From the NCBI GenBank assembly GCA_000403495.2, contig KE159817.1, positions 1-64,000 of the forward strand: DNA of 64,000 bases, written 5' to 3'. Below the pieces are notes generated by a model. That model saw nothing but the letters and a program-made list of their open reading frames with translations. It had not been told where the DNA came from and did not search any database. Shown here in pieces: positions 2,139 to 32,866 of the stretch. This stretch comes from Lachnospiraceae bacterium 10-1 (lineage in GTDB: Bacteria > Bacillota > Clostridia > Lachnospirales > Lachnospiraceae). Position 1 is the first letter of the stretch. Every line of letters starts with the position of its first letter. Both the position numbers and the translations under genes were made by a program.

Positions 2139-3845
2139 ATGACTACTGATGAAGAATATCTTGATAATCTATTAAAATCATTGACGGAAAATGAACAGCA
2201 GATCAAAACAATGGAAGAAACATTGAATGAGATGACAAGATCAGCTGCAAATGGAGAGGCTTTTTCAATGTCATCAGAAAAATCAGATAAGGTGCAGGAT
2301 AATGATGACAATGCTAATGAGGGGCTGAGGGCATTTGATGGTGATTTGTTTGGGGAAGAGCAGATATTTTCAGAAGATGAAGTGTCAAGTGAAGTATCTG
2401 CTGATGATGATATATTTGCAGATTTTTTTGCAGAAGCCTTGTCTGGGGAAGAAAGTACTGTGGAGAATTCTGAAATTCAGTCCGATGCAGAGGAATCAGA
2501 CCAGGTAGAGTTAAACATTGCTGATGCAGAAGACTGGCAAAGCGGACTGGATGATCTTTTGGTGAAAGCAGAAGAACAGGCAAGCGGTGATGACATTACT
2601 GTCGGTGTAGATGATTTGGATGTGGCAGATTTTGTTGGTCAAATTGATAATGTGGATGCAGACTTGACAGAAATTGATGGACTGCTAAAAAATGATGATA
2701 ATGGTGCTTTGAATGATGATATGTTAGCATTGCTTGAAGGTGCAGAGGCTTTGGATGATAATGCAGTCAATTCACCGGATGAGGTGAAAAACAATGTATC
2801 AGAGGAAAGCGCAAATTCGCAAGAGGCAGAAGCAGAGAAAGAAAAACCAGCGAAAAAGAAATTGTTCTCTAAAGAGAAGCCACCTAAAAAAGAGAAAAAG
2901 TCAAAATTATCTAAGAAAAAACAAGAGGGAGAAACTCCTGATTTAGGGATTTTGGATGAAAAGCCTAGTTTTCTTATGCGCTTTTTGGATTTCCTTACAA
3001 GGGAAGAAAATGAGGGAATTGAGAGCGAGGAGATATTAGATAAATTAAACAAAGAAAATGAGAAAAAGCAAAAGAAAGAAGAAAAAAAGAGGAAAAAAGC
3101 GGAAAAGAAGAAAGGAAAGTCAGATGAAGCCTTAGACGAAGAGGAAGAAGGCGCAGAGGATAATAAGAAAAAGAAGAAAAAAGAAAAAAAGAAAAAAGAA
3201 AAGAAAGAAAAGGAACCTAGTGAAGCACCAAAAGAAAAGCCTGTAAAGGTATTAAGCAAAAAGAATATGCTGGTGCTAATTGCAGCATGTGCAACTTTGC
3301 TTGGTAGTATATTTGCATTAAGTACTTTTTTGACAGAATATTCTGACAGACAAAATGCGCGTCAGGCATTTTATGATGGTGATTATGAAGAGGTATACAG
3401 ACTTTTTTATGACAGGAATTTAAACAGCAGTGATACTGTGATTTACAACAAGGTCAAAATAGTTCTTACTCTTGAGAGAAAGTTGAAATCATATGAAAAT
3501 AATCTTGCACTCAACAAGGAACTAGAAGCAGTTGATGCACTGATACAGGGAATAAGCTGTTACCAAAGCCTGCAGGGAATTGATGAATATGATGTAAGAA
3601 ATGAAGTAGATGCAATATATCAGCAGATATGCAATATTCTTGAAAATAAGTATGGCATAACTTACGAAGAAGCGATAGAGATTAATACATATGATAATGA
3701 AACCTATACCAGAATAGTGGACGCTATAGTAAATGGGACTGAATTTGTAATGCCAGGAGAGGAAATTGAGGAGGCTGAAGAGAGTGAAGAGGAGCTTCTG
3801 CCACAGGATGTATTGCCGGAGGAAGAAGAAATTATCAGCTACTAG
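2139..3845 (+). CDS. Acidic and KEKK-rich single-pass membrane protein, function unknown
   Basis: A 568-residue protein I cannot assign to a function. Residues ~1-230 are strongly acidic (Asp/Glu-rich, likely disordered) and ~230-375 are dominated by Lys/Glu runs (KKEKK type). One hydrophobic segment (NMLVLIAACATLLGSIFAL, ~376-398) follows, then a ~170-residue domain (ARQAFYDGDYEEVYRLFYD) that looks helical and TPR-like, and an acidic tail. There is no signal peptide, so I infer that the charged N-terminal half is cytoplasmic and the C-terminal domain external. AGGAGG precedes the start. Its end nearly abuts hisH, so the two may be co-transcribed. The DNA for the KEKK segment holds a 51-base all-purine run. 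Confidence 0.7.
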   Translation: MTTDEEYLDNLLKSLTENEQQIKTMEETLNEMTRSAANGEAFSMSSEKSDKVQDNDDNANEGLRAFDGDLFGEEQIFSEDEVSSEVSADDDIFADFFAEALSGEESTVENSEIQSDAEESDQVELNIADAEDWQSGLDDLLVKAEEQASGDDITVGVDDLDVADFVGQIDNVDADLTEIDGLLKNDDNGALNDDMLALLEGAEALDDNAVNSPDEVKNNVSEESANSQEAEAEKEKPAKKKLFSKEKPPKKEKKSKLSKKKQEGETPDLGILDEKPSFLMRFLDFLTREENEGIESEEILDKLNKENEKKQKKEEKKRKKAEKKKGKSDEALDEEEEGAEDNKKKKKKEKKKKEKKEKEPSEAPKEKPVKVLSKKNMLVLIAACATLLGSIFALSTFLTEYSDRQNARQAFYDGDYEEVYRLFYDRNLNSSDTVIYNKVKIVLTLERKLKSYENNLALNKELEAVDALIQGISCYQSLQGIDEYDVRNEVDAIYQQICNILENKYGITYEEAIEINTYDNETYTRIVDAIVNGTEFVMPGEEIEEAEESEEELLPQDVLPEEEEIISY

Positions 3846-21310: not shown

Positions 21311-23071
21311 ATGGACTTTAACGCGGTATATCACAGAGCAAATGATAATTATTGTTATCCCATTGACGAGGACAGGCTGATCATAAATATCAAAACCGGA
21401 TATGATGTGAAGTATGTGAATATTATCCAGGGTGATCCCTTTAAGGCCGGAATATTAGGAGGCGGAGAAAACTGGACAGGGGATGCGGTCAACATTCCCT
21501 TTAAAAAACGCCTGAAAAATCAATTATGGTGGACAACGACGATTGAACCGCCTTATAAAAGGCTTAAATATTTTTTTGAACTACAGACGGAAAATGAAAA
21601 ATGGTTTTATTTTGAAGACGGTATTATCAGTGAGGCACAGATGAATCTTGAGGGAAGAAGCCGCCAGTGCTTTGTATTTCCCTGGATGAATCCGGATGAC
21701 ATTAATAAGGCACCGGAATGGGTAAATGAAACTGTCTGGTACCAGATTTTTCCGGAACGATTTTGTAATGGAGACACTTCCAATGATCCGGAAGGGGTTC
21801 TTCCCTGGCGGGAAGAGGGAAGTGTAACCAATTATGAGTTTTTTGGGGGAGATTTGCAGGGGATTATCAATAAACTGGATTATTTGGAAAAGCTTGGAAT
21901 TACAGGGCTTTACCTGACGCCTGTTAATGAAGCGCCTTCCGCTCATAAATATGATACTGCGGATTATACCAGAATTGATCCTCATTTCGGGGATGAGAAC
22001 ACTATGCGTACCCTGGTAAGTGAGGCGCATAAACGGGGAATCCGCATTATGCTTGATGGAGTGTTTAATCATTGCGGTGCAAAGTTTGCTCCCTGGCAGG
22101 ATGTGGTGAAAAAGGGGCCTGATTCAAAATACTACGACTGGTTTATGATCCGTGAATGGCCTTTTCGGTTTGACGAGGGTGCTGCACGCAGCAGACAGTA
22201 TTACAGCTTTGCCTTTTATGATGAGATGCCTAAGTTAAATACTAATAATCCCAGGGTGAGAGAATACTTTTTAAATGTATGCGAGGAATGGGTAAGAAAG
22301 TATGACGTGGATGGCATACGTCTTGATGTGGCAAATGAAATTTCCCATGTATTCTGCAAGGAATTGAGAAACCGTATGAAGGCCATTAAGCCGGATATTT
22401 ATATTTTGGGTGAGATCTGGCATGATGCTATGCCCTGGCTTCGGGGAGACGAATTTGATGCGGTGATGAATTATCCTTTAGGAGAAAGCATTAAGGATTT
22501 CTGGATAGATAAAAGTTTGAGCAATGAAGATTTTGAATTTACAATTAACAGATGCTATACCGGTTATATGCAGCAGACAAACGATGTTTTGTTTAATCTT
22601 TTAGACTCCCATGATACCAAACGTCTTCGGTCTGACGTGAAAAATATGGACGAGTTTTTCCAACAGCTGGCGGTTTTGTTTTCCATGCCCGGCAGCCCCT
22701 GTATTTATTATGGAACGGAAATTGCAATGGAAGGCGGACATGATCCGGACTGCAGAAGATGTATGCCCTGGGGAAAAATTGAAAGAGGGGAATTTGATGA
22801 GCGGATTGAGATGATAAGAAGTCTGATTAAGCTGCGCAAAGAAGAACCTTTGCTTCGTGACAGAAATTTCCACTTCCCCAATAAAATAAATAAAAAACGT
22901 GTAATCGAATTTACCAAGGTAGGCTGGATGGACAATTATATAGAGGTTATTATTAATTGTGAAGAGGAGGATATTGAAATTCCAAGAGAGGGTGAAGTGC
23001 TTTATAAACGTCATTATATAGACAGTACATTGCTAAAAAATGGAATTTTAATTAGACGGATTAAAAAATAG
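21311..23071 (+). CDS. GH13 alpha-glycosidase, neopullulanase/cyclomaltodextrinase type
   Basis: 586-residue enzyme for alpha-glucans or maltodextrins. The N-terminal ~120 residues form a beta-rich domain as in CBM34-containing GH13 enzymes. The barrel carries nucleophile Asp339 (GIRLDVANE), acid/base Glu368 (ILGEIWHD) and Asp435 (LLDSHDT), plus the region-I motif LDGVFNHCG. There is no signal peptide, so it should act on imported oligosaccharides. AGGAAGG precedes the start. It lies just upstream of the solute-binding protein/ABC operon but has a separate promoter in between; functional coupling to a maltodextrin-type importer is possible but unproven. Confidence 0.9.
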   Translation: MDFNAVYHRANDNYCYPIDEDRLIINIKTGYDVKYVNIIQGDPFKAGILGGGENWTGDAVNIPFKKRLKNQLWWTTTIEPPYKRLKYFFELQTENEKWFYFEDGIISEAQMNLEGRSRQCFVFPWMNPDDINKAPEWVNETVWYQIFPERFCNGDTSNDPEGVLPWREEGSVTNYEFFGGDLQGIINKLDYLEKLGITGLYLTPVNEAPSAHKYDTADYTRIDPHFGDENTMRTLVSEAHKRGIRIMLDGVFNHCGAKFAPWQDVVKKGPDSKYYDWFMIREWPFRFDEGAARSRQYYSFAFYDEMPKLNTNNPRVREYFLNVCEEWVRKYDVDGIRLDVANEISHVFCKELRNRMKAIKPDIYILGEIWHDAMPWLRGDEFDAVMNYPLGESIKDFWIDKSLSNEDFEFTINRCYTGYMQQTNDVLFNLLDSHDTKRLRSDVKNMDEFFQQLAVLFSMPGSPCIYYGTEIAMEGGHDPDCRRCMPWGKIERGEFDERIEMIRSLIKLRKEEPLLRDRNFHFPNKINKKRVIEFTKVGWMDNYIEVIINCEEEDIEIPREGEVLYKRHYIDSTLLKNGILIRRIKK

Positions 23072-23202: not shown

Positions 23203-25464
23203 ATGAAAAAAATGAAAAAATTTATTGCAGCGGCAATTGTATTGGGAACTATGATGATGCTCCTTTTCGGTTGTGGAAAAGGTGAAGATACGCAAAATGA
23301 AACAAAGGGATATGTGTGGGTTTCCGAATACGCAGATTTCAATGTGGAAAAGTGTGACTGGCTTGATAAGGTGGTATCATTAGGCGATGAGTGTTTTTTC
23401 AGTACTTCCTATTATGATGAGGAAAAAGAACAGAGCGTAACGACTCTTTATAAGTATAATCTGCTGGAAAATAAAGCGGAAAAACTGAACTTTGGAATGG
23501 AAGAAAACAGCAGTGTTTATGGTATGGCGGTAAATGCGGATGGCAATCTGGCAATGCTTATTAATCAATATGAGTATATAGAAGATGAGGAAGGCAATGT
23601 AACAGATGTTAACAGTAAAATGCAGTTATGCACAATTTCTCCTTCTGATGGTTCTGTAATTGATTCAATGGAAATTACGGAAGTGCTGGGTGTATCACAG
23701 GAGACTTATATTCAGTATTTCTGTGTGGACGGACAGGGAAATCTTTTTTTGGCTGATGGCGACAGTAAGATTTATGTTTTAAATAAGGATATGCAGAAGA
23801 TTTGTGAGATCAGTATTGATGGATGGATCAATGATATGGTTGCATCTAAAGAAGGGGATGTATATGTAGCTTTTTATGGCAATGAAGGAATGGAATTAAA
23901 AAAGATTGATGTTGCGGCTAAAAAAATTGGAGAGTCAGTGCAGGGATTAAGTGAAGGTTATGGAAATTTTTCTTTTCACACAGGTGTTGACAAGAGCCTG
24001 CTTGTCAGCAGCAGCGACGGTATATCAACCTTTGACATTCAGTCGCAAACAAAAGAAGAGCTGTTTAAATGGCTTGACGTGGATATCAATTCGGATGATG
24101 TAAGTCAGGCAGGAGAACTTTCCGATGGGCGTATATGGGCAATTATCAGAGAATATGACAGAGATTATAACAACACTTATCAGTTAGTGTATTTAAGTAA
24201 AAAGGATGCATCAGAAGTGACTGCAAGGCAGGAAATTGTTTTCGGAGCTATGTGGATTGATTCTGATATAAAAAGAAATATTATTAAATTTAACAAGACC
24301 AACACTGAGTACCGTATTGTTGTAAAGGAATATGGAAAAGATGATTATGAGGCAGGACAGATACAGTTTGGTGCGGATTTAACTACAGGAAACTGCCCGG
24401 ATGTTATCAGCTTAAGCAGTCTTGACTTTGCACAATATGCAAATAAAGGCATTTTTGAAGATTTATATCCTTATATGGAACAAAGCGGTATCAAAAAGGA
24501 AGATTATGTTGAGAATGTTTTAGAAGCATATGAGTCAGACGGAAAGCTGTATGGAATTATGCCTTCCTTCTATTTATCCTCCACAGCAGTGAAAAAGTCA
24601 CTGGCAGGTGATAAGACTGGATGGACATTAAGTGAAATGCTGGATCTGGTGGATGAGGTAAAGCCTCAGTATGTAATGGCCTATGATTCCAAAGAAAGTA
24701 TGCTTTATTATTGTATTTATCAGAATATAGATGAGTTTATAGACTGGGAGAGCGGTGCATGTAAGTTTGATGGAGAAGAGTTTATAAGGGCTCTTGAATT
24801 TGCTGCACAGTTCCCTTCCTCTGAAGAAGCTGATTATAATGACAGAGAGGGGCTTTCAAGTCTCTTGCATTCCAATAAGCTTTTGCTCATGGATACTTCC
24901 ATCAGTTCCGTACAGGAATATCAGATGATGAAGGGAATGTTTGGGGAAGATATTACTTTTATTGGATCGCCCAGCAGCGACCGGAAAGGAAACTTGATTC
25001 AGCCGGCAGGAGGAAGTCTTGCCATGTCATCCAAGTCAAAATATAAGGATGGCGTATGGGAATTTATGAAAGTGCTACTTGAAGCTGAATATCAGGACAG
25101 CTTAGTGAACGAACATGGCGGCTTTGGATTCCCTCTTAGAAAAGAGTCTCTTGAAAAACAGTTTGAATATGATATGACTGCTGATTATTATGAAGATGCA
25201 GATGGAAATCAGGTAGAAAATCCAAAGACAACATGGGGATATGATGATTTTACAATTGAAATCATGGCGGCTACTCAGGAGGAAATTGATGAAATAAAGG
25301 CACTAATTGCGTCAGCAGAAAAGGTTTCAGAAAATGCTGATCAGCAGATTATAAACATTATAACAGAGGAAACAGAGCCATTTTTCAAGGGGCAAAAGTC
25401 TGCTGCTGATGTGGCAGGCGTCATCCAGAATAGAGTTCAGATTTATGTAAATGAGAACAAATAA
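23203..25464 (+). CDS. Large lipoprotein with C-terminal ABC sugar-type solute-binding domain (paralogue 1)
   Basis: 753 residues with a lipoprotein signal peptide ending in LLFGCGKG (Cys24). Residues ~40-340 are beta-rich with recurring strand patterns (AVNADGNLAMLIN, VDGQGNLFLADGDSKIYVLN) like a propeller. Residues ~345-753 resemble family-1 extracellular solute-binding proteins (IIKFNKTNTEYRIVVKEYG, ANKGIFEDLYPYMEQ). It ends PFFKGQKSAADVAGVIQNR, like the second protein at 30560. Start: ATG 23191 is in frame, but GAGGT just upstream favours 23203. It heads an operon with two permeases. The ligand is unknown; an oligosaccharide is inferred from the permease type. Confidence 0.82.
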   Translation: MKKMKKFIAAAIVLGTMMMLLFGCGKGEDTQNETKGYVWVSEYADFNVEKCDWLDKVVSLGDECFFSTSYYDEEKEQSVTTLYKYNLLENKAEKLNFGMEENSSVYGMAVNADGNLAMLINQYEYIEDEEGNVTDVNSKMQLCTISPSDGSVIDSMEITEVLGVSQETYIQYFCVDGQGNLFLADGDSKIYVLNKDMQKICEISIDGWINDMVASKEGDVYVAFYGNEGMELKKIDVAAKKIGESVQGLSEGYGNFSFHTGVDKSLLVSSSDGISTFDIQSQTKEELFKWLDVDINSDDVSQAGELSDGRIWAIIREYDRDYNNTYQLVYLSKKDASEVTARQEIVFGAMWIDSDIKRNIIKFNKTNTEYRIVVKEYGKDDYEAGQIQFGADLTTGNCPDVISLSSLDFAQYANKGIFEDLYPYMEQSGIKKEDYVENVLEAYESDGKLYGIMPSFYLSSTAVKKSLAGDKTGWTLSEMLDLVDEVKPQYVMAYDSKESMLYYCIYQNIDEFIDWESGACKFDGEEFIRALEFAAQFPSSEEADYNDREGLSSLLHSNKLLLMDTSISSVQEYQMMKGMFGEDITFIGSPSSDRKGNLIQPAGGSLAMSSKSKYKDGVWEFMKVLLEAEYQDSLVNEHGGFGFPLRKESLEKQFEYDMTADYYEDADGNQVENPKTTWGYDDFTIEIMAATQEEIDEIKALIASAEKVSENADQQIINIITEETEPFFKGQKSAADVAGVIQNRVQIYVNENK

Positions 25465-25481
25465 GTTGAGAGGGGATAGAA

Positions 25482-26423
25482 ATGCATTTTCCCAAAAGCA
25501 GGAAGCAAGAAAAAAGCCTGCAGATTCCAAAAGAAAATAAAAAAAAATCCGACAGTAACCGAAGAACGCGCAGAGGGAAACTGATATCTGTAGGATATCT
25601 GTTTCCCAGCGCTGCCGGCGTGCTGCTGTTTTTTGTATTGCCATTTTTGATTGTAATTTATTATTCTGTAGTGGATAATCCTATCAGCAATCAATTTGTA
25701 TTTTTTGACAATTATGTGATGGTATTTCAAAATGCAGCATTTCGACAAGCTGCAAAGAATACAATGATGTTTTCCCTTGTTGCAGTTCCTTTAGCAGTGG
25801 TTCTGTCATTGTTTCTTGCAATGATGCTTGAAAGCAAGATTCTATTTAAGAGCCAGTTTCGGACCTTTTTCTTAAGTCCAATGATGGTGCCGATTGCATC
25901 TATTGTTTTAATCTGGCAGGTTTTATTTCATTATAACGGGATGATCAATGAGGTATTGGGTACTTTTCAAATCGACAGGATTGACTGGCTGAATTCCAAT
26001 TATGCGCAGGTGGTTATCGTTATCCTCTTTTTATGGAAAAATTTAGGTTACAATATGATTTTGTTCATGTCGGCATTAAGCAGCATATCTAAGGATATTC
26101 TTGAGGTTGCTGTTCTTGAAAGTGCAACGCCGTTTCAGATATTTTGGCATATTAAATTAAGGTATATGTCCTCAACAATCTTATTTGTGACAATTATGTC
26201 ATTAATTAATTCTTTTAAGGTTTTCAGGGAAATCTATCTATTAAAAGGAGAGTATCCTTATGATACCATGTATATGCTGCAGCATTTTATGAACAATACA
26301 TTCAGCAGATTAGACTATCAGAAAATGTCTGCTGCTGCAATCATGATGGCAATTGTAATGGTAATCATTATAGGAATTTTATTCCTGACCGAGAACTATT
26401 TCGGAAAGGATGTGGAAGGATGA
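25482..26423 (+). CDS. ABC transporter permease, sugar type (MalF/UgpA-like)
   Basis: 313 residues with about six membrane segments after a basic N-terminal tail. The binding-protein-dependent transport fold is clear (SYLFPSA-like start, FFLSPMMVPIASIVLIWQ). The EAA loop that docks the ATPase is degenerate: EVAVLESATPFQIFWHI, where the consensus is EAAxxDGA, so the conserved Gly is Ser. GAGAGGGG precedes ATG 25482. It overlaps the next permease by 4 nt (ATGA). No ATP-binding subunit is encoded nearby, so a shared MsmX-type ATPase elsewhere is expected. Confidence 0.88.
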   Translation: MHFPKSRKQEKSLQIPKENKKKSDSNRRTRRGKLISVGYLFPSAAGVLLFFVLPFLIVIYYSVVDNPISNQFVFFDNYVMVFQNAAFRQAAKNTMMFSLVAVPLAVVLSLFLAMMLESKILFKSQFRTFFLSPMMVPIASIVLIWQVLFHYNGMINEVLGTFQIDRIDWLNSNYAQVVIVILFLWKNLGYNMILFMSALSSISKDILEVAVLESATPFQIFWHIKLRYMSSTILFVTIMSLINSFKVFREIYLLKGEYPYDTMYMLQHFMNNTFSRLDYQKMSAAAIMMAIVMVIIIGILFLTENYFGKDVEG

Positions 26424-27391
26424 AAATACAGGAAAAACGCAGTTTAAGCTTTAAGGGCAGTGAAATAGACAGATGGACCAGATTGGTTAAAAGGAGAAAA
26501 AAGATAAAACATGCCAGAGAAGTGGTAAGGATTTCACTGGCAACAATGATTGCCGGCTGTTTTGCGGTACTTTTTCTCATGCCGATTATATTAACAATAA
26601 CCAATTCTTTTATGTCGGCTTCAGAAATTTCGGCAAATTACGGGCAGGTATTTGCAACTACAGATACTGGTGGAAAGGTGTACATTTCAGAAAAAGTAAA
26701 TTTGAAATTTATTCCGGACATGGTATCTTTCAGCCAGTACATTACGGTTTTACTGAAAAGTCCCGAATATTTGTTTAAATTTTGGAATTCGGTTATACTT
26801 GTGGTTCCTATTGTTGCTTTCCAGCTTCTTGTAGCTATGGGGGCGGCTTATGGATTTACAAGATACAGGGGACGGATTAAAGAAATCATTTTTTTTATTT
26901 ATATTATATTAATGCTGATGCCTTATCAGGTTACGCTGGTACCTAACTATCTGGTGGCGGACTGGCTTCATACACTGAATACAAATTGGGCGATATGGCT
27001 TCCCGGAATATTTTCTCCTTTTGCAGTGTATCTTTTGACAAAATATATGCGAAGGATTCCTGTATCGGTAATGGAAGCCGCACAGATTGATGGTGCGGGA
27101 GAATGGCAGATTTTCAGAAAAATCTGTATGCCTCTTTGCAAAGGGGCAATGTGTTCTGTGGCAATTTTGATTTTCATAGATTATTGGAATATGGTGGAGC
27201 AGCCTTTGATCCTTTTGACGGATCAGGAAAAGCATCCTCTTTCCGTATTTTTATCAAAAATAAATTCAGGTGAAATAGGACTGGCGTTTGCGGTAGCTAC
27301 AATTTATATGGTGCCGCCTATACTGGTTTTTCTATATGGAGAGGATTATCTGGTAGAGGGAATTACCTATCAGGGAGGCATTAAGGGATAG
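26420..27391 (+). CDS. ABC transporter permease, sugar type (MalG/UgpE-like)
   Basis: 323 residues. It has a basic N-terminal stretch, a first membrane segment (~40-62), an unusually large extracellular stretch (~65-120) and five further membrane segments. The EAA loop is canonical here: VMEAAQIDGAGEWQIFRKICMP. It starts inside the preceding permease (ATGA overlap), so the two form the transmembrane heterodimer. It ends 2 nt before the upstream in-frame start candidate of the HlyD-like gene, indicating one transcript. Confidence 0.9.
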   Translation: MKIQEKRSLSFKGSEIDRWTRLVKRRKKIKHAREVVRISLATMIAGCFAVLFLMPIILTITNSFMSASEISANYGQVFATTDTGGKVYISEKVNLKFIPDMVSFSQYITVLLKSPEYLFKFWNSVILVVPIVAFQLLVAMGAAYGFTRYRGRIKEIIFFIYIILMLMPYQVTLVPNYLVADWLHTLNTNWAIWLPGIFSPFAVYLLTKYMRRIPVSVMEAAQIDGAGEWQIFRKICMPLCKGAMCSVAILIFIDYWNMVEQPLILLTDQEKHPLSVFLSKINSGEIGLAFAVATIYMVPPILVFLYGEDYLVEGITYQGGIKG

Positions 27392-27453
27392 AAATGATAT
27401 ATGCCGGCGCATATTATCAGGGCAAATTTTTCAGGAAAGGTAAGGGTTATATC

Positions 27454-29448
27454 ATGGGTGAGAATGAGGGAAGAAAAAGAAGAGAGTGGGTGAAGAATGC
27501 AGCAATTGTTTTTTTGGTGATTATGCTGCTGCTTACCTTTTTTTCTAATACAATCATGAACTATTCACTGCCTGAGGTGGCAACCCAGTATGTACAGAGC
27601 GGTACGATCACCGCTAAGGTGAGAGGAACAGGGAATGTGGAGGCCAATGATCCTTACAATGTAATCGTAAAGGAATCAAGGGTAATAGAAAGCGTGGCAG
27701 TAAAACAAGGCGATCAGGTAGAAAAGGATCAGGTAATTTATTATCTTGAAAATAAGGAAAGCGATGAATTAAAAAAAGCAGAGGATGAACTTGAAGAGCT
27801 GGAGCTTTCTTACATGAAGGGATTGTTTGGCGGAACTGTTTCCCCTGAAATCATAAATAAGGTTGCAAGTGGAAGAACAGATTCCTTTGCATCTTATCAG
27901 GCCATGGTCACAGACATACAAAACCGTCTTGAAGCGGCGGAAGCCAGAGTGAAAGAATGCCAGAATGTGCTGGATAATTTAAATCTGCAAAGTACAGTAA
28001 ATACCAATAATGCCACTGTGAGTACAGCGGCGGATGAGTTGGCCAAGATACAGGCTACTGCTGATTTGGCCAGCGCACAGGCAGCGTTTAATGCTTACAA
28101 GGAAAGACGGGTGGCGGAGGTTTCCGCTCAGATAGCAGAAGTAAAAAAGCAGGTTGAAGATTTAAGGGAATTGGTTTCCAAGGCGGAGACACTGGCAGAA
28201 GGGAATCCGGGGACGGGTGGGAGTATTCCTTCGGATACCTCAATAAAACCGCTTAGGGACAAAGTAGAAGAAACAAGGACTGTTTTATATGAAAAGATAG
28301 CGAATTTGGGTAGTGCGGGACTTGGTAGTTTTGCTTCGCCAGGTGAAGTCGAAGAGTGGAAAAAAAATTTAGACTGGAATACTTTAACTAAGGCTGAACA
28401 AATAGCTCTTGAGAACTATAATGTTGCATATTCAGAGAATAAAATTGCAAATGACCGTCTGAACGAAGCCATCAACAGCCTATCCGGCTACAGTGCTTAT
28501 CAGGCGAGCTTATCCCAAAAGGAGGCGGAATTAAACGCCCTTGAGAATAAGCTGGCTGAAATCAACGCAATTACTGTAAACTCCAACGAGGATGTGAAAA
28601 ATGCTACAAACAGGCTGGCGCAGGCGGAAAAAAATATAAATGAGATTACCAGCGCTAATAAAGAGACTTCTGTCAGCTATCAGAACCAAATTGCCAATGC
28701 GGAAGCGGCGCTTAAAAACGCCCAGGCGGTTTATGAACTTTTAAAAACAGAACAGACTGAGCTGGCGGCAGATATTAATGCAGAACTTGATCTTTCCAAG
28801 ATTAACAAGGATATTGCAGAAAAGAAGGAAGAAATTGCGAGATTAAAAGAAAGTTCAATGGGGACGGCAATTACAGCGCCTGTTGCAGGTACCATAACCA
28901 GTCTTGCCTATGTTGCCGGAGAAACTACCAAGCCGGAAGAGGCGGCGGCAGTGATACAGGTGGAAGGCAAAGGCTATACCTTAAAGATTTCTGTGACCAA
29001 TGAGCAGGCGAAAAAGGTGCAGGTAGGAGATACTGCCGAGCTGCAAAATGCCTGGTACTATGATGATGTACAGGCAATTTTGTCATCTATCAAGCCAGAT
29101 CCTGATAATCCGGGACAAAAAAAGCTGCTTGAATTTGAGGTGACCGGTTCCAGCATTCAGGCAGGTCAGGCCTTAAATATTTCCGTAGGCCAGAGGAGTT
29201 CGGAGTATGAACTTGTGGTGCCTAACAGTGCGGTTCGGGAAGATAATAATGGAAAATTTATTTTGATCGTGGAATCTAAGAGTGGTCCTTTAAGTAACAG
29301 ATATATTGCCACCAGAGTAGATGTGGAAGTGCTGGCGTCAGATGATAATAACACTGCAATTTCAGCAGGACTTTATGGCTATGAATATGTAATCACTACT
29401 TCTACCAAACCAGTAGAAGCAGGCAAGCAGGTAAGACTAAATGAATAA
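27454..29448 (+). CDS. HlyD/RND-type adaptor (membrane fusion) protein
   Basis: 664 residues from ATG 27454. ATG 27394 is also possible and would add 20 residues. It has one N-terminal membrane anchor (AAIVFLVIMLLLTFFS), a split biotinyl-lipoyl domain (VIVKESRVIESVAVKQGDQV and ITAPVAGTITSLAYVAGE), a very long coiled-coil hairpin between them (~100-480) and a C-terminal beta-barrel region. Such adaptors usually work with a MacB-type ABC exporter. Here the neighbours are sugar ABC permeases upstream and a MacB-core-like protein downstream, overlapping by 8 nt. No exporter ATPase is seen. Its role in an apparent importer operon is unexplained. Confidence 0.85.
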   Translation: MGENEGRKRREWVKNAAIVFLVIMLLLTFFSNTIMNYSLPEVATQYVQSGTITAKVRGTGNVEANDPYNVIVKESRVIESVAVKQGDQVEKDQVIYYLENKESDELKKAEDELEELELSYMKGLFGGTVSPEIINKVASGRTDSFASYQAMVTDIQNRLEAAEARVKECQNVLDNLNLQSTVNTNNATVSTAADELAKIQATADLASAQAAFNAYKERRVAEVSAQIAEVKKQVEDLRELVSKAETLAEGNPGTGGSIPSDTSIKPLRDKVEETRTVLYEKIANLGSAGLGSFASPGEVEEWKKNLDWNTLTKAEQIALENYNVAYSENKIANDRLNEAINSLSGYSAYQASLSQKEAELNALENKLAEINAITVNSNEDVKNATNRLAQAEKNINEITSANKETSVSYQNQIANAEAALKNAQAVYELLKTEQTELAADINAELDLSKINKDIAEKKEEIARLKESSMGTAITAPVAGTITSLAYVAGETTKPEEAAAVIQVEGKGYTLKISVTNEQAKKVQVGDTAELQNAWYYDDVQAILSSIKPDPDNPGQKKLLEFEVTGSSIQAGQALNISVGQRSSEYELVVPNSAVREDNNGKFILIVESKSGPLSNRYIATRVDVEVLASDDNNTAISAGLYGYEYVITTSTKPVEAGKQVRLNE

Positions 29449-30544
29449 TAGGATCATATATTTTATAAAGAGTTTGTCACTAAAACAGATCATATTTTCA
29501 TCAATCACTGTCATTTCACTGCTGTTGTATCTGGTATTGACCGTTTGGTCAAATCATCAGGTTGCTGCACTTACTGACCAGCAGGCGGCAAAACGGTGGG
29601 ATAAAGAAGGAGGCAGTGCGCAGGTAAGCTGTTTTTTTGCGGAAAATACGGAAGTAGATGAATATATGCTGATGAGCTTTGAAAGGCAGTTGGAACAAAG
29701 CCTGTTAGAAGTATTACAGCAGGAGGAAACAGAAGGAGAAAAGGATAAGCGTCTGCTGATTGATGCATTCAGTTCACTTGGAAGCATAACAATTACCAGT
29801 GAAAAGGGTAAACTGGAAAATGTGAGTGCTGTGGGGGTTGGAGGAGACTTCTTCCTGTTTCATCCCTTGCAGCTTGTAAATGGCGGATATTTTTCCGGTG
29901 ATGATCTGATGCAGGATTCTGTTATTTTGGATGAAGAAGCAGCATGGCAGCTTTTTGGTTCAAATGATATTGCCGGAATGAGCGTGATGATTGGAAATGT
30001 GCCTCACTACGTGGCTGGTGTAATTAAAAGACAGGAAGGAAGATTTGCAGAAGGGGCAGGCCTTAATAAAACAGTGGTTTATGTTTCTTACACATCTCTT
30101 GACTCTTATGGCACTAGTGACGGAATCAATGTTTATGAGGTAGTGGCACCGAATCCTGTGAAAGGATTTGTCTACAATGCCGTGAAAGAAAAGCTGGGCG
30201 TGACTGAGGATAAGATGGTGGTAGTGGAAAATTCTTCCCGATATACACTTCCGGCCCTGCTTCCGGTTCTTCTTGATTTCGGAACCCGTTCCATGCAGAA
30301 TACAGCAGTGAAATTTCCCTACTGGGAAAATATAGGAAGAGGCTGGGAGGATGTAAAGGTAGTGATTTTACTGTTCCAGTTTATATTGCTATTATTACCG
30401 GCAGGGATTATAACAGTATTTCTGATCATACGGTGGAAAAACAGGAATTTAACCATGAAGGATATTTGGAATTTTGTTTTGGAAAGTAAAGACAAATTGT
30501 GGAGAAAAGCATGGGGAGCGAAGGATAAGTGGAAGCATTTTTAG
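29441..30544 (+). CDS. MacB periplasmic-core-like membrane protein
   Basis: 367 residues. One N-terminal membrane segment (QIIFSSITVISLLLYLVLTV) is followed by a ~280-residue extracytoplasmic domain resembling the MacB/FtsX core (LVNGGYFSGDD, SVILDEEAAWQLFG, VPHYVAGVIKR), then one C-terminal membrane segment (VILLFQFILLLLPAGIITVFL) and a basic tail. Full MacB/FtsX permeases have four membrane segments with a C-terminal bundle of three; only one is present after the core, so it looks like a shortened permease or a scaffold. It overlaps the HlyD-like gene, implying a joint complex. Confidence in the domain is moderate. Confidence 0.65.
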   Translation: MNNRIIYFIKSLSLKQIIFSSITVISLLLYLVLTVWSNHQVAALTDQQAAKRWDKEGGSAQVSCFFAENTEVDEYMLMSFERQLEQSLLEVLQQEETEGEKDKRLLIDAFSSLGSITITSEKGKLENVSAVGVGGDFFLFHPLQLVNGGYFSGDDLMQDSVILDEEAAWQLFGSNDIAGMSVMIGNVPHYVAGVIKRQEGRFAEGAGLNKTVVYVSYTSLDSYGTSDGINVYEVVAPNPVKGFVYNAVKEKLGVTEDKMVVVENSSRYTLPALLPVLLDFGTRSMQNTAVKFPYWENIGRGWEDVKVVILLFQFILLLLPAGIITVFLIIRWKNRNLTMKDIWNFVLESKDKLWRKAWGAKDKWKHF

Positions 30545-30559
30545 AAGGGAGTAATAGTT

Positions 30560-32866
30560 ATGAAGAGGTTTAATAAAAAAATAGTTATACTGGGACTTTT
30601 TATTTTGCTTATGACAGGAGTATGGGGGTGTGGAAAAAAATCTGCGGACAATACCCCTGCTACAGTTGCGTCCAAAGATTACATTTATAAGGCAGAAGTA
30701 TTGGAGGATATTTTTGGACAGGAAGACAAATCGGTTGATCGTTTGCTGCGTTCAGGAGATAGTTTTTATGCATATGGATTTGAGTGGAACGAAGAAACAG
30801 AAACTTCTGCTTTAATGGTGTATCAGATCAGTGAAGAAGGAACCCTGGAAAATGAATATGTTATTCCGGTGGAGGAAAATGCCAGCTTTAGGAATCTTAC
30901 AATGGATGATGATGGGAATATTTATTGTATTATAAATGAGAGCCAGGAAGTAGCCGGAGAAGCTGATCCAGAAACAGGTGAAGAGACGACGGAATATATC
31001 GACACTTATTATCTTACTAAAATGAGTCTTCAGGGGGAAAGAATTTTCAGTACGAATCTTAATGAAATTCCGGAGTTTAAAACCCGTTGGGAAGAAGACG
31101 GATACTTTTATGTGGGAGAAATGATACTTGATAAGGAAAAAGGTATTTATGTCAATACAATGGGAATGCTTGGCAAGTTCGATCTGGAATGCAATTTCAG
31201 GGAGGTAATGGAAGAGAGTAAATGGAATGAACTTTCATCAGCCAATTTTGTGCTGTTAAATGATGGACGGATGGCAGCATATCTGTATGAGGATGATGGA
31301 ATTACTTTGGCACTTGCAGATTTAGAACAGGGAACTCTTGGTGAAAAGTATAAAGTACCAGGGCGGTCTTATGAATTCAGCTACTATCCGGGGGTTGGAT
31401 ATGATCTGTACATGACAGATTCAAACAGCCTTTATGGATATAATATTGGTGACGAAGATAAGACAATGCTGATGAACTATATAGATTCTGACCTGTCAAC
31501 TTATAATGTTTATAATGTGGTTGGAATAAATGAAAAACAGTTTTTTGCATTTTGCGACGGGGAAAATGTTCCTGTGAAATTTACAAAAGTAGATCCAAAG
31601 GATGTGAAGGACAAAAAACAGATTACCCTTGCGACTGTATATACCAATTGGCAGATCAGACAGGAGGTAGTTGAGTTTAACAAGTCAAATGATGAATACC
31701 GGATTAATATTTTGGATTATAATTCTCTATATGGTACGGATGAAGATTATATGGCAGGCATAAATAAGCTGAACACAGACATTGTTTCGGGAAAAGTGCC
31801 GGATATTCTTGTAGTGGACGAAAACATGCCGGTGAACAGTTATATCAATAAAGGCCTTTTTGAAGACTTAAAGCCTTATATAAATGAAGATCAGGAAATA
31901 GATATGGATGATCTAATGCCCAATGTGATAGAAGCTTTTTCCATAGACGGAAAGCTTTATACCATGATGCCCTCTTATTATATTGAAACATTGGTTGCAA
32001 AGACTTCAGATGTGGGAGAAGAAAGAGGATGGACGGTACAGGAGGCAAAGGATTTACTGGCATCTAAGCCGGAAGGAACACAGTTTATTAATAATGTGAC
32101 AAGAGAAGCAATGCTGGATGAATGTATGTCAATGGCAGGCAGCCAGTTTATAGACTGGGAGAGCGGAAAATGTAATTTTAATTCTGATGAATTTATTCAG
32201 ATGATTGAGTTTATAAAAAGCTTTCCGGAAGAAGTGGATATGGAAGCGTTTGGAGATGACTACTGGACGAACTATGATGCCATGTGGAGGGAAGGAAAAG
32301 TGATTACTTCCAAAGCAGGGATCAGTAATTTTAACTATTATAACTATCTGGAAAAAGGTACCTTTGGAGAAAAGATTACCATAATAGGATTTCCCACATC
32401 AGTTGGAACAGGCTCGGTAATCCGTCCTACTTTCCAGATGGCAATTTCTTCAAAATCGCCTAATAAAGAAGGTGCATGGACTTTTGTCAGAACCTTTTTA
32501 CTGGATGAATATCAGGCAGGAGAAACAAATTATAATCTGCCGATCAGTATTAAGCGCTTAAAGGTGCTTGCGGAAGAAGCAACGCAAAGGCCCTATTATC
32601 TGGATGAAAAAGGAAATAAGGTTGAATATGATGAAACTTATTATATTGGAGATGTTGAAATTGTGATACCTCCTATGACAAAACAGGAAGCAGAAGAATT
32701 TGTGGAACAGCTTTACAGTTTTACGGAAGTTTACCATTATGATGAAAGTTTGATCAATATCATTAAAGAAGAAATTGCACCGTTCTTTAAGGGACAAAAG
32801 AGTGCAAAGGATGTAGCCGCAATTATTAACAGCAGAGCACAAATTTACGTGAGCGAAAATAAATAA
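30560..32866 (+). CDS. Large lipoprotein with C-terminal ABC sugar-type solute-binding domain (paralogue 2)
   Basis: 768 residues, with a lipoprotein signal ending in GVWGCGKK (Cys24). The architecture matches the protein at 23203: a beta-rich N-terminal half, then a binding-protein domain starting near VYTNWQIRQEVVEFNKSNDE. Shared motifs include YINKGLFEDLKPYI, FIDWESGKCNFN and the C-terminal PFFKGQKSAKDVAAIINSR. The sequences have diverged clearly, so this is an old duplication or two different ligands. It is the last gene of the operon. Its stop is separated by one base from the stop of the opposing tmcAL gene, with no terminator between them. Confidence 0.82.
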   Translation: MKRFNKKIVILGLFILLMTGVWGCGKKSADNTPATVASKDYIYKAEVLEDIFGQEDKSVDRLLRSGDSFYAYGFEWNEETETSALMVYQISEEGTLENEYVIPVEENASFRNLTMDDDGNIYCIINESQEVAGEADPETGEETTEYIDTYYLTKMSLQGERIFSTNLNEIPEFKTRWEEDGYFYVGEMILDKEKGIYVNTMGMLGKFDLECNFREVMEESKWNELSSANFVLLNDGRMAAYLYEDDGITLALADLEQGTLGEKYKVPGRSYEFSYYPGVGYDLYMTDSNSLYGYNIGDEDKTMLMNYIDSDLSTYNVYNVVGINEKQFFAFCDGENVPVKFTKVDPKDVKDKKQITLATVYTNWQIRQEVVEFNKSNDEYRINILDYNSLYGTDEDYMAGINKLNTDIVSGKVPDILVVDENMPVNSYINKGLFEDLKPYINEDQEIDMDDLMPNVIEAFSIDGKLYTMMPSYYIETLVAKTSDVGEERGWTVQEAKDLLASKPEGTQFINNVTREAMLDECMSMAGSQFIDWESGKCNFNSDEFIQMIEFIKSFPEEVDMEAFGDDYWTNYDAMWREGKVITSKAGISNFNYYNYLEKGTFGEKITIIGFPTSVGTGSVIRPTFQMAISSKSPNKEGAWTFVRTFLLDEYQAGETNYNLPISIKRLKVLAEEATQRPYYLDEKGNKVEYDETYYIGDVEIVIPPMTKQEAEEFVEQLYSFTEVYHYDESLINIIKEEIAPFFKGQKSAKDVAAIINSRAQIYVSENK

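Follow-up and report, generated by a model that had tools for sequence, protein, structure and literature searches.

In a 64,000-nucleotide stretch of DNA from Lachnospiraceae bacterium 10-1 (contig KE159817.1, positions 1 to 64,000; hereafter the window), we found a set of six genes that probably encodes a type I (CUT1) ABC importer equipped with a permanent, passive accessory scaffold derived from MacA and MacB. The case for this reading was built by sequence comparison, from the gene set and its order, the domains of the products, the absence of the two outer TM helices from the MacB-like protein, the importer-type ATPases of related operons and the separate clade formed by the permeases. 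According to the ORF list and Pfam searches, the six adjacent open reading frames all lie on one strand and span positions 23203-32866 in the order SBP1-PERM1-PERM2-HLYD-MACB-SBP2. The same set had been proposed at these positions in a sequence-only reading of the window, and the Pfam domains matched each of the parts named there.

The genes are tightly spaced. SBP1 and PERM1 are separated by 17 nt and MACB and SBP2 by 15 nt, while PERM1 and PERM2 overlap by 4 nt and HLYD and MACB by 8 nt. The gap between PERM2 and HLYD is 2 nt when counted from the open frame at 27394 and 62 nt from a start at 27454; the latter start is probably correct, since the consensus of the homologues begins near residue 21 of the HLYD frame. 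For SBP1, the start at 23203 was favoured over the 23191 given by the ORF tool because a GAGG motif lies 6 nt 5' of the ATG at 23203. The small gaps (approximately 60 nt at most) and two overlaps reported earlier are therefore borne out by the coordinates, and on this spacing a single transcript is plausible. Promoter and terminator scans returned 54 and 12 hits, against 40.2 and 9.5 in shuffles, respectively, and were given no weight. Elsewhere in the window, positions 2139-3845 hold an ORF of 568 aa whose middle is extremely rich in lysine and glutamate.

SBP1 (23203..25464, + strand) is a lipoprotein of approximately 753 aa with an N-terminal predicted beta-propeller and a CUT1-type solute-binding domain, and SBP2 (30560..32866, +) is a second propeller and solute-binding lipoprotein sharing 32% identity with it. 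Their C-terminal halves scored 65.6 and 69.1 bits against the Pfam domain SBP_bac_8 (cut-off 27), which occupies residues 366-656 of SBP1 counted from start 23191. A profile of the N-terminal half matched mostly beta-propellers in the PDB, usually over one repeat unit, and its strongest matches were all propellers. In the model of an SBP2 homologue that forms part of a natural MACB-SBP2 fusion, strands extend from residue 378 to 686 and are followed by a two-lobed binding domain, the fold class being assigned by eye. The Foldseek neighbours of this homologue were mostly sugar-binding proteins, with CbpC of Clostridium thermocellum as the best match of the binding domain. We predict from these profiles and models that the large binding proteins combine a beta-propeller with a sugar-binding-protein domain, in agreement with the beta-rich N-terminal halves that the sequence-only reading had described in both proteins of approximately 750 aa. 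The same reading had also drawn attention to the presence of two such proteins; both are indeed in the window operon, but the pair is no constant feature of related loci. Among the distinct strong loci (defined below), 83 of 99 have an SBP gene upstream and 104 of 120 have one downstream; where both flanks are covered, SBP genes on both sides were found in 66 of 92. Orphan SBP lipoproteins of the propeller type, two in number, were also observed on contig C11 of genome G000 (L350:7339-9576 and L351:7147-9177), in operons of their own without permeases; a 748 aa orphan on this contig is 34% identical to SBP1, and a gene resembling a chemotaxis receptor, by eye, lies near the L350 orphan.

The two permeases, MalF/UgpA-like PERM1 (25482..26423, +) and MalG/UgpE-like PERM2 (26420..27391, +), both contain the Pfam domain BPD_transp_1. 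PERM2 has a regular EAA loop, and an EAA-type motif was present in 98 of 103 PERM2 sequences. In PERM1 an EVAxLESA loop is conserved instead, and this divergent motif was recovered in 84 of 103 sequences, which makes the coupling of PERM1 to a shared ATPase uncertain. A search of the window genome with PERM1 gave 29 matches at E ≤1e-3, itself included, and two trees placed the adaptor-linked PERM1 sequences in a single clade (SH-aLRT 100) apart from ordinary sugar-importer permeases. The trees comprised 49 adaptor-linked and 24 ordinary rows (first) and 42 and 31 (second). Of the 31 ordinary permeases in the second, 20 came from the window genome and 11 from others; L423, L425-L428 and L430, among others, were omitted from it, as were four long rows. 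Both were quick trees made without bootstrap and rooted at the midpoint, with several ordinary rows on long branches. No HLYD match was found beside the ordinary permeases of the trees in loci reaching approximately 1.5 kb on each side. Of 20 regions picked from PERM1 profile matches of at least 300 bits, 17 held a full HLYD gene, one a short one (L427) and one none (L430), while one lay at a contig edge (L423).

HLYD (27454..29448, +) is a MacA-like membrane-fusion adaptor with one N-terminal TM helix and a helical region of approximately 360 residues. It matched Pfam families HlyD_3 (27.1 bits, cut-off 22.2) and Biotin_lipoyl_2 (30.2 bits, cut-off 29.8), and scored 68.9 bits against NCBIfam RND_mfp, below the cut-off of 94.9. 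In its model (mean pLDDT 81.2), beta-rich adaptor domains accompany a TM helix at residues 30-53 and a helical region at 124-486; the domain orientation in this model is not reliable given the low overall pTM of 0.34. MacA was the top Foldseek match of this model, with EmrA, AcrA and BesA also scoring high. The longest modelled helix has 88 residues, or approximately 130 Å by simple helix geometry. As a MacAB-like assembly of S. pneumoniae is described to rise approximately 154 Å above the membrane (PMC5768738), it is possible, from model and analogy, that HLYD reaches toward the wall.

MACB (29441..30544, +) contains a MacB-like extracytoplasmic core flanked by two TM helices. The core was recognised by Pfam (MacB_PCD, 38.9 bits, cut-off 27), and the profile comparison with the PDB retrieved MacB and YknZ cores, the MacB periplasmic core being the best solved relative; no nucleotide-binding domain was found within MACB by Pfam. 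By a simple hydropathy count, the window protein has two TM segments, with just a short tail past the second. Two segments were likewise counted in 113 of 119 MACB proteins of the window's type (class A) and three in the other 6, as opposed to four in 24 of 25 ordinary weak MacB matches (L122, L155, L156 and L171 excluded). In MacB, the coupling helix sits between TM2 and TM3. The four-TM layout with a coupling helix in this place was seen neither in the window MACB nor in class A, and a protein without the outer helices, TM3 and TM4, should also lack that helix, the major coupling helix being cytoplasmic in MacB (PMC5985334). MACB thus keeps the extracytoplasmic core on only two membrane helices and, judged from its sequence, probably cannot be driven in the manner of MacB. 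In the model of the homologous fusion (mean pLDDT 91.3), a helix at 16-44 precedes an alpha/beta core and a long helix at 292-331; by eye, the modelled order of beta-alpha-beta, insert, beta-alpha-beta fits the Porter/Sabre plan described for the MacB core in PMC5985334. Three relatives (G011, G012 and G016) encode MACB and SBP2 in one frame of 1078-1104 aa, or 1078-1093 aa in two further analyses, and these in-frame fusions suggest that the two proteins are made together. The fusion junction retains a signal-like helix and a lipobox behind the second TM helix, which fits a cytoplasmic C-terminus of MACB and an external SBP2.

In order to follow the module through other genomes, loci were annotated with profiles for which the window and an initial batch of 64 regions were the source. 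From 466 relatives found in named genomes, the 80 best were retained. Kineothrix alysoides and Lachnotalea glycerini are among the carriers of the module. The MACB profile divided its matches into two well separated sets. The strong set consists of 125 distinct MACB loci scoring 285-569 bits, in which identical cores were collapsed and near-identical ones retained separately. MACB was present in 36 of 37 genomes of the window's genus, the lone miss being a genome that is 59% complete. Within the family, 44 of 299 genomes matched at E ≤1e-3, of which 29 strongly (E ≤3.4e-26); at 1e-10, the profile matched 56 of 295 genomes of the order (21 strong) and 44 of 398 of the phylum (4 strong). In 120 of the 121 strong loci whose sequence extends far enough, HLYD is the gene immediately upstream of MACB; in L088, the exception, it is found approximately 500 nt away. 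Over a longer range, MACB follows the series PERM1-PERM2-HLYD in 100 of 101 distinct strong loci, L088 again being the exception, and such retention shows that the grouping is not due to chance. Overall, this comparative genomics shows the gene set to be one evolutionary unit. The sequence-only reading had called for such a survey, and its main claim, that the adaptor and the MacB core are functionally part of the importer, is strongly supported by the conserved order. It had also named a refuting condition, namely homologues of HLYD and MACB that regularly bring their own ATPase elsewhere and are adjacent here by accident. Close relatives of the pair contradict this condition, as no exporter ATPase comes with them: in strong loci HLYD occupies the position upstream of MACB, and of 120 loci with sequence downstream only 3 have an ATPase directly there, all importer-type. 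The weak set numbered 36 loci initially and 31 after removal of L076, which is a truncated locus of the strong set, of the class B locus L122 and of the class C loci L155, L156 and L171. In 20 of these 31 loci an ATPase of 224-269 aa lies directly upstream, as in ordinary MacB systems; the remaining 11 show no ATPase in this place, which in L145 and L150 is taken by an adaptor. PERM1, PERM2 and SBP genes were found in none of the 31 weak loci within the searched stretches of up to approximately 3.5 kb.

The adaptor-linked importers extend beyond class A. Within the window genome, the two nearest paralogues of PERM1 belong to SBP-PERM1-PERM2-HLYD operons, with an SBP of approximately 810 aa and without MACB, so MACB is not obligatory for the wider class. 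A search with one of the paralogous adaptors matched 18 of 150 family genomes. Among the 18 regions recovered in this way, which we term class B, a divergent MacB-like gene was linked to HLYD, by eye, in 15 (not so in L327, L329 and L332). MacB_PCD reached or exceeded its Pfam cut-off in L330, L331, L337, L416 and L417, as well as in L122, stayed below it in L335, L415, L419, L421 and L424 and was absent in candidates L336, L339, L343, L418 and L429; with this mixed outcome, the identity of MACB is weaker in class B. In class C (L411-L414, from three genomes of two other families) the order is PERM1-PERM2-HLYD-MACB-ATPase, and the SBP, with 459-498 aa, is of ordinary size. Its MACB has 5-6 hydrophobic segments, with MacB_PCD well over the cut-off in the two proteins examined. 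In L341, L343 and L415 the internal gene order is altered and the module retained. More specifically, class B loci L341 and L343 read SBP-lipoprotein-HLYD-MACB-PERM1-PERM2-ATPase, with the small lipoprotein-like gene at L341:2484-2996 and L343:8190-8822. In another class B operon, a VanY-type carboxypeptidase gene (PF02557; L328:6111-6818) lies between HLYD and MACB, and at L297:11806-13763, a class B operon of the window genome, the neighbours resemble, by eye, an M56 peptidase and a BlaI-type repressor. These VanY, M56 and BlaI-type neighbours possibly link the respective operons to the cell wall.

No ATPase was found by Pfam among the six operon genes, as the sequence-only reading had stated. 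This is nothing special, as a UgpC/MsmX-type ATPase exists elsewhere in the genome. A TOBE_2 search of the window genome returned two ATPases, one of PotA type and one of UgpC/MsmX type (L261, 508 bits, cut-off 432); the latter probably powers many CUT1-type permeases in trans. Nine related operons in eight genomes hold an ATPase next to the module, all at or above the NCBIfam UgpC cut-off. L263-L265, from three genomes outside the family, read SBP-PERM1-PERM2-HLYD-MACB-ATPase with an ATPase of UgpC type (the SBP frame being split in two in L264), and account for all ATPases directly downstream of MACB among 120 strong loci. In L341, L343 and L411-L414, where the ATPase adjoins the permeases or MACB, the type is again UgpC, with L343 at 432.3 bits against the cut-off of 432. 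Among the typed ATPases, none of MacB type was found inside such an importer operon; class B locus L420 additionally has an ATPase-like ORF of 572 aa, 116 nt upstream of the SBP. When the 92 class A loci with both flanks were screened by motif over 9 kb, 14 showed a same-strand ORF resembling an ATPase, and 7 of these 14 were looked into. They included the UgpC-type L263-L265; those of L097, L223 and L246 adjoin a separate exporter-like operon, and the L090 positive is probably a GGDEF gene misread by the pattern. Exporter-like genes with an ATPase were observed downstream of MACB in L097/L233 (one genome), L223 and L246, joined in L223 and L246 by an HlyD-like gene and in L246 additionally by a four-TM MacB gene. 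The exporter at these loci is possibly a living relative of the donor of HLYD-MACB.

The surroundings of the operon were examined for indications of the substrate. A gene for a GH13 cyclomaltodextrinase-like enzyme (21311..23071, +) adjoins the operon in the window, but it is found in only 8 of 34 loci of the genus and is thus an optional neighbour. Same-strand neighbours were scanned in class A loci that, as far as could be judged, lie outside the window's genus (92 of 158 eligible proteins), with Alpha-amylase in 2, MCP in 3 and GGDEF in 3 of the 92; ten neighbours scanned singly included one GH10 enzyme (in L118). Among the 25 most frequent of 105 neighbour families, no consistent polysaccharide enzymes were found. 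A glycan locus was therefore rejected as a general link.

Based on these observations, we propose that SBP1 and SBP2 would catch a ligand, perhaps carbohydrate-like, outside the cell and that PERM1 and PERM2 would carry it inward in a step powered by the UgpC/MsmX-type ATPase from elsewhere in the genome. MACB, without the two outer helices and hence without the loop through which MacB is coupled to an ATPase, would serve as a passive platform holding the MacB-like core on two membrane helices. HLYD, with its very long helical hairpin, would dock on this core in the way known for MacA and MacB and extend upward beneath the wall, and in such a physical complex the pair would position the propeller lipoproteins above the permease or channel the ligand there. 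A scaffold that carries the lipoproteins across the wall, as the sequence-only reading had suggested, could take this form. We hold more tentatively, and on balance doubt, the stronger proposal of a distinct importer class in which a MacA-type adaptor tube stands on an ATPase-less MacB-like platform, the ligand is loaded by the propeller lipoproteins, either at the tube or at the face of the wall, and then handed down to the permease. Adaptors regarded as export parts would in that case work in the inward direction in bacteria that have no outer membrane.

The main rival to an importer with a scaffold is a sensing complex, in which permeases and binding proteins would signal the ligand via MACB and HLYD to a partner and transport would be secondary, comparable to transporter-linked two-component systems. 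A histidine kinase and response regulator do occur within 9 kb in 24 of 36 class B and in 4 of 4 class C loci, and in a cluster of 18 class A loci, though not in the window, the module is followed by a same-strand gene of GGDEF type (the member at L186:13488-14780 was typed sCache-GGDEF), to which the MCP and GGDEF neighbours mentioned above may be added. In class A, however, the kinase-regulator pair was found within 9 kb in none of 58 loci, nor in any of the 3 that come from outside the family. The importer ATPase held by the nine related operons, the retained permease loops and the short MACB tail past the second TM segment also argue against sensing, and we regard it as unlikely.

A somewhat less probable alternative is that HLYD-MACB acts outward with the help of an ATPase encoded elsewhere, either in efflux or by extracting lipoproteins or fragments of the wall, and shares the operon because import and export serve one pathway. 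The MacA fold of HLYD, the MacB core of MACB, the 5-6 hydrophobic segments of class C MACB, the VanY gene in L328 and the apparently complete MacAB-type exporters just downstream in L097/L233, L223 and L246 are all compatible with such a role. Class A MACB, on the other hand, lacks TM3 and TM4 (113 of 119) and so the TM2-TM3 coupling loop, HLYD and not an ATPase precedes MACB in the strong loci, and the three downstream ATPases are UgpC-type. Lastly, accidental neighbours held together by slow chromosomal rearrangement could be invoked within the genus, where the surroundings are syntenic too (DUF711 in 32 of 34 loci). This very improbable explanation is largely refuted by the many different surroundings of the module outside the genus, its survival of reordering in L341, L343 and L415, the MACB-SBP2 fusions and the single permease clade spanning several bacterial families.

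Membrane-fusion adaptors are usually described as partners of exporters. An importer clade keeping such an adaptor would mean that adaptors can also structure the zone beneath the wall for uptake; MACB would exemplify a MacB-like protein without motor coupling. The clade also offers a system for directly testing an adaptor role in uptake, the role of these adaptors in single-membrane bacteria being posed as an open question in PMC5985334. The class is common in this bacterial family: PERM1 profile matches of at least 300 bits were counted by hand in 54 of 200 sampled family genomes and in 8 of 398 phylum genomes, the window genome being included in both samples. We found no description of the module in the open-licence literature, judged by titles and abstract starts, and within that scope its known parts form a new combination.

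The module is most readily compared with CUT1 importers that use a shared ATPase (MsmX/MsmK), which likewise combine an SBP_bac_8 or SBP_bac_1 protein with two BPD_transp_1 permeases and have no ATPase in the operon; the orphan MsmX is described as serving several such importers (PMC7658222). Unlike these systems, the module includes an adaptor resembling MacA together with a MacB-like core, its binding proteins are of approximately 750 aa with a predicted beta-propeller and its permeases form a separate clade. MacA-MacB, YknWXYZ and Spr0693-0695 share the adaptor fold and the MacB core with it, and the Gram-positive adaptor is described as a hexameric tube docked on a MacB-like pump (PMC5768738). 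By comparison, the module has neither an ATPase domain nor an adjacent MacB-type ATPase, two TM helices in place of four, and importer permeases next to it. The type VII mechanotransmission proteins FtsEX and LolCDE also have an extracytoplasmic MacB-like core between TM1 and TM2, and according to PMC5985334 they are ABC transporters with an ATPase for which non-efflux roles are known. In contrast to these relatives, the module in the window operon has no linked ATPase, and its partner is an importer.
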